From: Muribaculaceae bacterium
GTDB taxonomy: Bacteria > Bacteroidota > Bacteroidia > Bacteroidales > Muribaculaceae
Assembly: GCA_022510425.1 (NCBI GenBank)
Contig: JAFLTO010000006.1
Coordinates: 62,001-126,000, forward strand
DNA length: 64,000 bases
Direction: 5' to 3'
The position numbers and the translations under genes were made by a program. Below, piece after piece: positions 509 through 53,853 of the stretch; within the stretch, counting starts at the first letter, position 1, and every line of letters begins with the position of its first letter. Below the pieces are notes generated by a model. The model ran no database searches. It worked only from the letters and a program-made list of their open reading frames with translations, and was not told the DNA's origin.

Positions 509-1627
509 ATGCAAGACAGGGAGATAGTTTACAAAATGGCCTTTTCATTTTTAAACAAAATGAATGCCTCTTTGCTACGACAGATTGACCTGAAAAAAAT
601 TTCTCCCGAAGAATTTTTCACTATTCCCACAAAAGAACTAATTGTGCGACTTGGCATACGTCAAGAACACGAATTCGATAAAATTGCCCGTGAAGAAGCT
701 CTTACAAAGGCTCAAAAAGAATGGCAACAGATAAAAGACCATAATATAAAACCGCTCTTTCTCCTTGATGAAGATTATCCGGGAAAACTCGCTGAAATCT
801 ACGATGCGCCTTTGATTCTTTATAAATTAGGTGATGCTGATTTAGATTCTGAACATATGGTATCGGTGGTGGGAACCCGAAAACCTACTCCTTATGGTCT
901 GGATTTTTGTAATAAGATAGTAGAGGAAATCAGTGAGTATTTTGATGATGCCGTTGTTGTAAGCGGGCTCGCTTATGGTATTGATGCCGCTGCTCATAAA
1001 AAAGCCCTTGAAAAAGGAATACAAACAGTGGCGGTTGTTGCCCATGGTTTAAACATGATATATCCGGCTGCCAACAGAGGTTTGGCTAAAGATATAATAA
1101 AATCCGGAGGCGCTTTATTATCTGAATATCCTTTTGGCACCACACCCTTTAAACCAAACTTTTTGGCCCGTAATAGAATTGTAGCCGGACTTTCAGACAC
1201 CACTATAATAGTGGAAAGCAATATTAAAGGTGGAGCGATGTCTACTGCCAATTATGCTTTCATGTATAACAGAGATGTGATGGCATTGCCGGGTAGAAGT
1301 TCCGACGATCTTAGCTCAGGGTGCAATCTCCTTATTAGAAAGAACAAGGCACATCTAATTGAATGTGCCGCAGATCTTATAGAAATAACAGGGTGGCAAC
1401 CTTTAAACTTGGCTGTAAACTCTCAACATAGAAATCTTTTCCCTGAACTACAAGGAGATAACAAAAGAATTTATGAAATTCTGAAATATGCTTCACACCC
1501 GGTCCAGATGGATCAGATAGTGCATCAGACCGGTATACCGGCGTCAAAACTTTTAGCGTTGCTCAGTGAATTGGAATTTGATGGTATCATTATGCGCCAT
1601 CCCGGCAACCGATACTCAATCTCCTAA
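509..1627 (+). CDS. dprA: DNA-processing protein DprA
   Basis: DprA/Smf binds single-stranded DNA and loads RecA during natural transformation; in many non-competent bacteria its role is unclear. The 372-residue protein shows an N-terminal SAM-like helical part, then the Rossmann-like core: VVGTRKPTPYG at 120-130 (the GS/TR nucleotide-binding loop), VSGLAYGIDAAAH at 151-163, the SEYPFG block near 205, LARNRIVAGLSD at 219-230 and a GGAMSTA block at 241-247. A C-terminal winged-helix region lies at about 318-370. Length and motif order are complete. ATG immediately follows the stop of the thioesterase gene. Confidence 0.95.
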   Translation: MQDREIVYKMAFSFLNKMNASLLRQIDLKKISPEEFFTIPTKELIVRLGIRQEHEFDKIAREEALTKAQKEWQQIKDHNIKPLFLLDEDYPGKLAEIYDAPLILYKLGDADLDSEHMVSVVGTRKPTPYGLDFCNKIVEEISEYFDDAVVVSGLAYGIDAAAHKKALEKGIQTVAVVAHGLNMIYPAANRGLAKDIIKSGGALLSEYPFGTTPFKPNFLARNRIVAGLSDTTIIVESNIKGGAMSTANYAFMYNRDVMALPGRSSDDLSSGCNLLIRKNKAHLIECAADLIEITGWQPLNLAVNSQHRNLFPELQGDNKRIYEILKYASHPVQMDQIVHQTGIPASKLLALLSELEFDGIIMRHPGNRYSIS

Positions 1628-1652
1628 TCTCAAATATATTATACTTTAACCC

Positions 1653-2531
1653 TTATATCCTCTCCAATACAGTTTCTACCAGTCTGGCAACGGATGGTTT
1701 ATAATCAGTATTAGCGTTTTCTTCCCTTCTTTGAGCGATTATGCAGCATACTGTCAACGCTTTATGTCCAAGCAATTTCGCCATCCCCTGTAGACATGCG
1801 CTCTCCATTTCGAAATTTGTAATAGGAGTGCCATTATATCTGAACTCTTCTATTCTTTTAATCAGATCAGGGTCTTTTAATCTAAGCCTTACTTCACGTC
1901 CCTGAGGAGCATAAAAACCTACGGATGCGATTGTATTACCTCTCACCATATCATCACCGCCGATTCTGGATACCAAGGATTCGTCGGCGTCAACTACGTA
2001 AGGACGTGCCCATAGTGGGTTCCAGTCAACATAAGTACAGAATTGATTTTCAAATTTCAGATCACACACAGAATCCCGGCCCTCATAAAAATTGAGGATA
2101 CCATCAAATCCCATTCCCTTCTGTGCGATAACAAAATCTCCTATCTTAAGGTCATATTGAAGTGAACCGGAAGTGCCTATTCTCACCAATTCCAAAACTC
2201 TCTTATCTTTTCTTACTTTACGTGTCTTGAAATCTATGTTAGCTAATGCATCAAGTTCTGTCACCACTATTTCTATATTGTCAGCACCTATACCATGGGA
2301 AATACACATTAATTCCTTCCCTTTATATTTGCCTGCTATAGCATGGAATTCCCTTGATGAAACATCATAATCTATGGAATCAAAATAAGATGCTACCATG
2401 GTGACTCTTCCGGGATCTCCCACAAGTATTATCTTATCCCTCAATTGCTCTGGTTTCAGATGGATATGAAAAACCGAATTATCATCGTTGATAATCAATT
2501 GTGAGGAAGGAATGAATCTCTCTATTTCCAT
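1653..2531 (-). CDS. Nucleoside phosphorylase (uridine phosphorylase-like, PNP/UDP family 1)
   Basis: A cytoplasmic phosphorylase that should split a nucleoside with phosphate into base and ribose-1-phosphate. The 292 residues carry the family landmarks: phosphate-binding GDPGR at 38-42, RIGTSGSL at 117-124, and FEMESACLQG at 240-249, the glutamate segment contacting ribose. Uridine is the likeliest substrate, but purine or broad specificity cannot be excluded. It is longer than MTA/SAH nucleosidase (about 230 residues), so it is not the obvious partner of the luxS gene in this window. It converges on dprA with 25 nt between stops and lies downstream of tRNA-Ser on the same strand. Confidence 0.85.
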   Translation of the reverse strand: MEIERFIPSSQLIINDDNSVFHIHLKPEQLRDKIILVGDPGRVTMVASYFDSIDYDVSSREFHAIAGKYKGKELMCISHGIGADNIEIVVTELDALANIDFKTRKVRKDKRVLELVRIGTSGSLQYDLKIGDFVIAQKGMGFDGILNFYEGRDSVCDLKFENQFCTYVDWNPLWARPYVVDADESLVSRIGGDDMVRGNTIASVGFYAPQGREVRLRLKDPDLIKRIEEFRYNGTPITNFEMESACLQGMAKLLGHKALTVCCIIAQRREENANTDYKPSVARLVETVLERI

Positions 2532-52403: not shown

Positions 52404-52685
52404 ATGGATAATAAGAAATTCACCGAAGAACTCTCATCTCGACTTGATATTTCTTTGAGCTCTGTCAATGTATTGATAGAGGGTTTATGTAAGGAAATGG
52501 TAACAAAAGCATCAAATCTCGATGGTATTGTCGTGCCCGGCTTCGGCTCTTTTGAACCTCGTCTTCGGGAAGAAAGAATTTCTGTCCACCCGGCTTCCGG
52601 TAAACGGCTCTTGGTGCCACCAAGAATTTTTCTTTCCTTCAAAGCTTCTCCTTTACTAAAGCAAAAGATTAACAATGGAAAATAA
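52404..52685 (+). CDS. HU/IHF-family DNA-binding protein
   Basis: A 93-residue HU-like protein with the usual order: helical N-terminal half (MDNKKFTEELSSRLDISLSSVNVLIEGL), GIVVPGFGSFEPR (the 'G.G.F' strand) and the arm region RISVHPASGKRLLVPPRIFLSFKAS. The arm lacks some of the Arg/Lys of canonical HU, so DNA-binding mode may differ. It overlaps the next gene, a membrane HU, by 11 nt; the two may form a heterodimer. Confidence 0.88.
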   Translation: MDNKKFTEELSSRLDISLSSVNVLIEGLCKEMVTKASNLDGIVVPGFGSFEPRLREERISVHPASGKRLLVPPRIFLSFKASPLLKQKINNGK

Positions 52686-53853
52686 AATTGCTATTACTTC
52701 ACTTGCATCCCTTTTGGCTCAATCTTCCGGTAAAAGCAAAAAGCTATGTGAAGATTTTTTGCGCGAATTTTTCAAATTGACCGCTGAAGCTCTCGAAAAT
52801 GGTGAATCTTTGAAAATTAAAGGATTCGGAACTTTTAAAATATCTGATGTTGAAAGTAGAATCAGTGTGAATGTAAATACAGGCGAACCACAGGAAATTG
52901 CCTCTCACAAGAAAATAGTGTTCACACCCGCAAAAGAAATGGCCGTAGCCATAAACGCTCCTTTCGAAGACTTTGAATCTGTTGAAATGGACGACGAATT
53001 TCCTGAAAATATTTTAATTCAAGAAGAAGAACTTGGCGAGGATTCAGATAATATCCTAACGGATACTCTTATAACAGAAAGTCAATCGAACATTATTGAC
53101 GAAATTAATAAAAATGAGGAGAGAAGTGATGAGAATTTGGTAAGTTCCCAAATTCTTGAGGCCGGTTCAATTGAAGAAGGTGAAGACGATGAAATAACAT
53201 ATGAGGCCTATCATGAGGAGGAAGAAAAAGTTCCTTTGGAAAGTAACCAAACCGATGAATATAATTTAGAAAATAATACTGCTGCTTTTTCCACCGAAAA
53301 TATTACCTATGACTCGACTGAAAATCCGGAAGTAAATTCTGAAGAATTTTCGCATGAAACGGATTCAAATTTTGAATTTGAAGAGAAACCTCAGAAAAGT
53401 CGATTCGGAATAGGTTTTCTTGTGGGCGCATTGTCCACTTTTGCTGTTTGTGCTGTAATTTTTATGATTGGCTGTTTTCTGGACTGGTGGCCTGTCAATT
53501 TTGGAAGTCCTAAAGATCTGGTGGCAGAACAGCAAACAGTAGAAAAAATTGAACCGGAAGTCATAGAATTGCCCGTACAAGAGGAAAGTATATCTGAAAA
53601 AGAACCGGTTTACGACACAGTATCCACAACACGATATCTCACCACTATAGCCCGGGAACACTATGGGAATTATAATTTCTGGCCATATATTTACCTTGAG
53701 AATGAATCTATATTAGGTCATCCGGATAGAATCACTCCGGGGACAAAAGTTGTGGTGCCGGATCTTTCTAAATATGGAGTTAACCCTTCAAACAAAGAGG
53801 ATGTGGAAACCGCAAAAAAGAAAGCGGTTGAAATTTATGCACGTTTCAATTAA
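52675..53853 (+). CDS. Membrane-anchored HU-like protein with C-terminal LysM domain
   Basis: 392 residues in four parts. Residues 1-95: HU/IHF fold (GESLKIKGFGTFKI, RISVNVNTGEPQEIASHKKIVFTPAKEM). Residues about 100-240: strongly acidic, Asn/Ser-rich linker. Residues about 244-268: one membrane helix (FGIGFLVGALSTFAVCAVIFMIG). Residues about 320-363: LysM-like segment (TTIAREHYGNYNFWPYIYLEN, ITPGTKVVVP). There is no cleavable signal, so the HU half should be cytoplasmic and the LysM half periplasmic. A direct DNA to peptidoglycan link is inferred. argB begins 24 nt after the stop. Confidence 0.8.
   Translation: MENKIAITSLASLLAQSSGKSKKLCEDFLREFFKLTAEALENGESLKIKGFGTFKISDVESRISVNVNTGEPQEIASHKKIVFTPAKEMAVAINAPFEDFESVEMDDEFPENILIQEEELGEDSDNILTDTLITESQSNIIDEINKNEERSDENLVSSQILEAGSIEEGEDDEITYEAYHEEEEKVPLESNQTDEYNLENNTAAFSTENITYDSTENPEVNSEEFSHETDSNFEFEEKPQKSRFGIGFLVGALSTFAVCAVIFMIGCFLDWWPVNFGSPKDLVAEQQTVEKIEPEVIELPVQEESISEKEPVYDTVSTTRYLTTIAREHYGNYNFWPYIYLENESILGHPDRITPGTKVVVPDLSKYGVNPSNKEDVETAKKKAVEIYARFN

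Follow-up and report, generated by a model that had tools for sequence, protein, structure and literature searches.

We have identified a two-gene module that may join the nucleoid to the cell envelope. The larger product, P1 (392 aa; 52675..53853 in the window, the 64,000-nucleotide stretch of DNA analysed here), carries an HU domain, an acidic linker, a membrane helix and a LysM-type domain. The smaller, P2 (93 aa; 52404..52685), is a stand-alone HU/IHF protein and the putative heterodimer partner of P1; both genes, and all features given below, lie on the plus strand. We favour a reading, evenly balanced in our judgement between right and wrong, in which a P1:P2 clamp holds DNA and is tied through the membrane to peptidoglycan, making a DNA-to-envelope anchor that is HubP-like and parallel to the HU-CCDC81-SPOR proteins. 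Computation supplied everything shown here, from the domains and the membrane helix to the pairing and natural fusion of the genes, the arm residues retained or lost and the gene neighbourhood.

The domain architecture of P1 had been proposed in an earlier sequence-only reading of the window, and Pfam and NCBIfam scans together with a structure model confirmed it and then extended it. The HU/IHF fold, previously placed at residues 1-95, occupies residues 1-97 (52675..52965), where PF00216 matches at 77.5 bits (cut-off 22.4) and the predicted structure has the HU fold that membership of this family calls for. The domain has a full-length arm in which Val67 replaces the HU tip proline and Arg62 (HU Arg58) is kept. 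It is followed by a disordered acidic linker at about residues 98-245 (52966..53409; 33% D/E, net charge -43, pLDDT mostly <50), in agreement with the acidic linker of 140 residues recognised earlier. That linker had been suggested to act as a DNA mimic or a spacer; the DNA mimic gained no specific support, and an acidic spacer is equally consistent with the data. A chance or mis-called P1 reading frame was ruled out, as P1 is conserved in relatives.

The hydropathy profile of P1 peaks in a window at residues 248-266; no other window of the chain exceeds 0.65. The 248-266 segment forms the hydrophobic core of a membrane helix at residues 246-276 (53410..53502), close to the single helix expected at about 244-268. 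Lys and Arg residues lie on the N-terminal side of the helix, and the 41 residues past the hydropathy window carry a net charge of -7. The predicted topology is one membrane helix, N-in by charge, with the LysM domain on the far side. The helix leads into a predicted periplasmic spacer at residues 277-308 (53503..53598), which is acidic and modelled with low confidence (pLDDT <50 at 285-307). A secreted protein with a signal peptide was rejected because the P1 N-terminus has no hydrophobic window, and the lack of a cleavable signal had been anticipated.

These features extend to the relatives collected below. The charge distribution predicts N-in for 28/30 close sequences. A membrane window >1.6 was found in 50/52 full-arm, 10/10 arm-less and 10/10 fusion proteins, and the linker is net negative in 50/52, 10/10 and 10/10 of the same sets. 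Since Lys and Arg are commoner before than after the helix in 43/52 full-arm, 7/10 arm-less and 6/10 fusion proteins, the N-in prediction is good and not universal; the same bias was seen in 8/10 proteins of family f134, which belongs to another class. In one relative (L011:3998-5545, plus strand) the linker is P/Q/A-rich with 11% D/E and a net charge of -11. Given such a linker with little acidity, its charge may be less important than its length or disorder.

The LysM-like domain noted earlier at about residues 320-363 was borne out by profile homology and fold as a domain of about residues 309-365 (53599..53769), with the Pfam LysM cut-off unreached. Both the HU part and the LysM part fold as such in the full-length model of P1. 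It is this model, taken with profile comparison, that supports homology to, and the fold of, solved LysM domains; folds were compared by VIA-align, whose match list is mostly HU rows. Pfam LysM (PF01476) gave no match for 30 sequences at E<=0.1, P1 was not among the PF01476 matches of its own genome at E<=1, and a relative, L150, scored 17.9 bits against a cut-off of 20.9. The nearest solved LysM domain is that of Kbp (YgaU), followed by those of phage-tail and contractile-injection proteins, and P1 shares the Kbp/PRK11198-type LysM subtype by both sequence profile and fold. Kbp binds potassium; unlike P1, it carries a BON domain and is not known to have an HU domain or a membrane helix. Behind the LysM domain of P1 lies a conserved C-terminal helix at residues 374-389 (53794..53841), seen in the alignment of relatives and in the structure model. 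The same LysM subtype was also found at the C-terminus of two outer-membrane-type proteins with a beta-barrel and an OmpA domain (L101:1056-2738 and L134:979-2652, both minus strand).

The gene for P2, directly 5' of P1, had been overlooked in the sequence-only reading. P2 matches PF00216 at 54.6 bits (cut-off 22.4; E-value 1.3e-14) and keeps the tip proline, P63. The end of P2 and the start of P1 overlap by 11 nt (52675..52685), which makes translational coupling likely. P2 lies upstream of P1 in 31/31 loci of relatives, one of which, L021, has P1 broken into two frames. Besides the P1/P2 pair, PF00216 matches only two genes in the genome of the window, both of ordinary HU size and located elsewhere, which makes four matches in all. 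A P1 match was present in 23/25 genomes of the window's genus, and the two genomes without a match are ~79% complete.

To follow the architecture across Bacteroidales, a profile of the LysM region (A5) was searched in 392 genomes of the order, giving 103 match rows in 92 genomes. Eighty stretches covering 81 of these rows were fetched and read with local HMMs. The window's own row and 21 others were left out; the latter are mostly short frames or frames with stops and include five longer frames (G157, G415:C37, G270:C141, G354:C34 and G241:C8). The 80 loci comprise 52 full-arm pairs, 10 arm-less or degenerate-HU pairs, 10 fusions and 8 others. The P1-P2 pair is therefore found in 62 loci, and the 72 positives come from 72 genomes in 19 families of the order. 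Among the full-arm pairs, the two genes overlap or abut in 44/52, mostly by 4, 8 or 11 nt. The 8 other loci are one cut by a contig end (L092), four that encode other proteins (L101, L134, L141 and L142), two without an adjacent P2 (L144 and L147) and one that is split (L151). In L144 (about 950-2050, minus strand) a P1-like HU-TM-LysM protein lies directly behind a RimO-type gene without an adjacent P2; either P2 has moved elsewhere or the protein acts as a homodimer. In L151 (minus strand) P2, a P1-type HU frame and a TM-LysM frame adjoin in different frames, which we read from the sequence as a frameshifted or split P1.

At the level of the phylum, 14 stretches were fetched, two of which overlap, and 13 were analysed. 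The pair was found with the same order of parts in 10/13 of these loci, all from family f134. In these f134 pairs the genes overlap in 10/10, and the membrane window reaches 2.2-3.3. The other three loci, L224 (also f134), L222 and L223, encode other LysM proteins. Furthermore, a search of 247 phylum genomes with a profile of the P1 HU domain gave, as its best 28 matches, sequences of >=108 bits that all lie in frames >=358 aa, 3 of them in the window's order and 25 in f134. Seven of the 28 are rows of the search profile itself, and the LysM end was read for a minority of the 28. The next match is an HU of ordinary length at 82 bits, and all ordinary HU proteins score <=82 bits. Many LysM-profile matches in the rest of the phylum sample sit in short frames. 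In another family of the phylum, an HU domain (G617:C29:22895-23167) lies within an 857-codon open frame.

The residues at the tip of the arm separate the two proteins. Among full-arm sequences, Pro63 is present in 79/79 P2 proteins and Arg58 in 78/79. P1 has Val or Ile at position 63 in 78/81, Pro in 2 and Glu in 1, with Arg58 in 79/81 and an arm length of 29 in 81/81. For the tip proline and arm arginine with which HU/IHF proteins intercalate into and contact DNA, the two proteins give a mixed picture. For these residue counts L035, the same gene as L074, was dropped, and the P1 start of L073, called too far upstream, was trimmed; A2 and A3 exclude L016 (cut) and L021 (two frames), and A3 also L015 and L029 (odd or cut P2 start). 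Because the P1 proteins of f134, as well as L146 and L149 from the order, still have a tip proline, Val/Ile at this position is probably derived in the main clade. The median net charge of the first 100 residues is 0 for P1 versus +5 for P2. The pair has in common with IHF alpha/beta the HU fold, non-identical paired subunits, arm Arg58 and the Pro63 of P2. It differs from IHF in the fusion of P1 to a membrane helix and a LysM domain, in the Val/Ile tip of P1 in the main clade and in the near-neutral charge of P1.

In the arm-less pairs the P1 arm is shortened from 29 to 9-15 residues in 10/10, and P2 keeps Pro63 in only 2/10 and Arg58 in only 2/10. These pairs retain the pairing, the membrane helix and the LysM domain. 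They come from three families only (6, 3 and 1 genomes), include six genera of the window's own family besides that of the window, and thus represent few independent events, so the count of joint decay is no statistical test. Correlated decay of the P1 and P2 arms is as expected for two arms of one DNA clamp; it is also evidence that the clamp is dispensable in the arm-less lineages. As the P1 arm is lost while the membrane helix and LysM domain stay, the function conserved in all of these proteins may be something other than DNA binding. The arm is kept in the window's genus and lost in several lineages outside it, so DNA binding looks to be selected in that genus and dispensable elsewhere.

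At 10 loci, from four families (f82, f19, f29 and f56), both HU domains lie in one chain as HU-HU-TM-LysM, in the order of the gene pair, and each fusion lies directly behind a RimO-type gene, where P2 otherwise starts. The first HU matches P2 profiles in 10/10 fusions, and the second (about residues 85-188) matches the arm-less P1 profile at 28-59 bits in 10/10. Of four LysM proteins used as controls for the arm-less profile, only L141 matched it, and weakly. The second HU resembles full-arm P1 less than arm-less P1, and all 10 fusions are apparently arm-less. Since the HU-HU fusions keep the order of the pair, they argue for a P1:P2 heterodimer, and the DNA-binding unit is probably this heterodimer rather than the P1 chain alone. 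In the control protein L141 (754-2637, plus strand; 628 aa) the arm-less profile matches weakly at two HU-like places within residues 23-130 (7 and 20 bits), and Pfam finds no HU anywhere in the protein. L141 also has an extended E/K-rich stretch, one membrane helix and a LysM domain of the P1 subtype. It is a possible CCDC81-LysM hybrid.

The module resembles several known systems. HU-CCDC81_bac_1/bac_2-SPOR proteins (PF18174, PF18175, PF05036) have the same order of modules, two HU-type domains followed by a wall-type domain; in contrast to our pair, their HU domains are short and lie in one chain, and SPOR takes the place of LysM. L153 is such a protein (97.7, 87.4 and 28.7 bits), with a hydrophobic segment seen by eye. 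PF18175 occurs in at least 347/392 genomes of the order at E<=1e-5 and exceeds its cut-off in at least 313. In the window genome, neither PF18175 nor SPOR gives a match above its cut-off. P1 is not itself a member, with 13.8 bits for PF18175 against a cut-off of 35 and no PF18174 or SPOR match at E<=1, and HU-HIG (PF18291) was likewise rejected (P1 13.7 and P2 11.9 bits, cut-off 26.2). The idea that the SPOR and LysM types are mutually exclusive was dropped, because among the matches listed several genomes have both at different loci (e.g. G249, G275, G172, G125 and G347). The window genome also has a 126-codon frame (L164:1312-1689, plus strand; contig C1 near 135081) that scores 24.9 bits for PF18175, below the cut-off. 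By eye it resembles a CCDC81_bac-type double HU that is soluble, with no membrane helix or SPOR, and it is perhaps a reduced relic of an HU-CCDC81-SPOR protein. Burroughs et al. 2017 (Cell Cycle) reportedly predicted a chromosome-partition role for the HU-CCDC81_bac-SPOR family. An HU-TM-LysM protein is not named in the titles and abstract openings of the part of the literature covered, although the architecture may be described by Burroughs et al. 2017.

The best functional likeness to P1, by analogy, is HubP. According to the accessible part of one report, the periplasmic LysM domain of Vibrio HubP is needed for polar localisation, the protein has one TM helix and an acidic cytosolic part, and its chromosome link runs through ParA1 (PMC8789113). 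P1 and HubP/FimV thus share a periplasmic LysM domain, a single TM and a long acidic cytosolic region, and a chromosome link is known for HubP. In contrast, the C-terminal TPR part of HubP is cytosolic, the reverse of the part order in P1, and the same part of that report names no HU domain. The likeness is functional only, as P1 matched no FimV, HubP or TPR family at E<=1 in Pfam or NCBIfam.

The gene neighbourhood may point to the envelope. A MoxR ATPase gene lies 51-283 nt downstream of P1 on the same strand in 50/80 loci, and a RimO-type gene lies upstream in 30/80; at least one of the two is present in 64/80 and both in 16/80. In 9/12 longer stretches MoxR is followed by VWA (BatA-type) genes, and most of these 9 also have DUF58, TPR and BatD; upstream, FtsY- and RimO-type genes are found in 5/12 and polyphosphate kinase in 4/12. 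The names FtsY, RimO and Bat were assigned here to Pfam matches. Outside the window's genus the pair is often directly upstream of moxR-bat, which ties it by association to envelope or stress physiology. The window and L005-L009 lack moxR beside the pair, which there follows genes for a DUF3078 protein and for a protease read as S41.

This linkage bears on an explanation that we consider unlikely, in which P1 is a membrane-bound envelope-stress sensor whose LysM domain senses the wall and whose HU pair alters local DNA architecture and transcription, for example of moxR-bat. The frequency of MoxR downstream is in its favour, as is the reported effect of MoxR and Bat on survival of heat and oxidative stress in Riemerella (PMC11834572). 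Against it, the Pfam and NCBIfam scans found no sensor-transmitter domain, the moxR linkage is absent in the window and L005-L009, and a disordered linker of 100-200 residues would transmit a conformational change poorly. HU also binds DNA with little sequence specificity, which suits a transcriptional sensor badly. A slightly better case, though still a rather doubtful one, can be made for an HU pair that serves as a protein-protein dimerisation platform of the HU-CCDC81 type, acting as an envelope scaffold or MoxR-Bat partner while ancestral DNA binding is being lost. It would account for the deletion of the P1 arm in 10/62 pairs and the decay of P2 arm residues while pairing, TM, LysM and moxR linkage (7/10 arm-less pairs) stay, for the arm-less character of the second HU in the 10 fusions, and for the shared module order of L153. 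However, the arm is near-invariant in length and residues in 52/62 pairs and the window's genus (79-81 sequences), a constancy for which DNA binding is the readiest explanation, and a MoxR-Bat partner does not fit the loci in which moxR is not adjoining. Least probable of the explanations weighed here is a C-terminal LysM that binds an ion or another protein, so that the attachment site of the DNA would be an envelope complex or the inner membrane itself and not the wall; it draws on Kbp, phage-tail and contractile-injection proteins as the nearest solved LysM relatives.

The sequence-only reading had proposed that P1 alone crosses the inner membrane and touches both nucleoid and wall. This tether is upheld in part: the topology that it needs is well supported by charge, the single helix, the far-side LysM domain and the conservation in 19 families and f134. 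Its DNA unit, on the other hand, is probably a heterodimer and not P1 alone, DNA binding is not what all lineages conserve, since several have deleted the arm, and peptidoglycan binding is putative given the kinship with potassium-binding Kbp. For the anchor that we prefer, we infer heterodimer formation, DNA binding, peptidoglycan binding and an anchoring role as follows. In the cytoplasm, P2 and P1 would pair as an HU heterodimer like IHF, binding DNA and bending it; the proline that intercalates and the majority of the basic residues of the arms would come from P2, and the second arm from P1. The flexible acidic tether, leading to the single inner-membrane helix, would serve as a spacer, giving the clamp access to DNA at some distance from the membrane, and the periplasmic LysM domain would bind peptidoglycan and fix the complex to the wall. 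Such an anchor may position or immobilise part of the nucleoid, or tie the nucleoid to envelope maintenance. Somewhat more tentatively, a deeply conserved IHF-like heterodimer may have been a dedicated mechanical chromosome-to-wall anchor that later became an arm-less, non-DNA-binding scaffold in several lineages, paralleled by the HU-HU-SPOR proteins.

To our knowledge, nucleoid-envelope attachment in bacteria is largely unresolved outside a few polar systems. If our reading is true, a two-gene module joining nucleoid and envelope in 19 families of the order and one of another class would offer a direct genetic handle on this attachment. Additionally, the series of full-arm, arm-less and fused forms suggests the conversion of a nucleoid protein into an envelope scaffold, for which the SPOR-type HU-CCDC81 proteins may represent a parallel endpoint.
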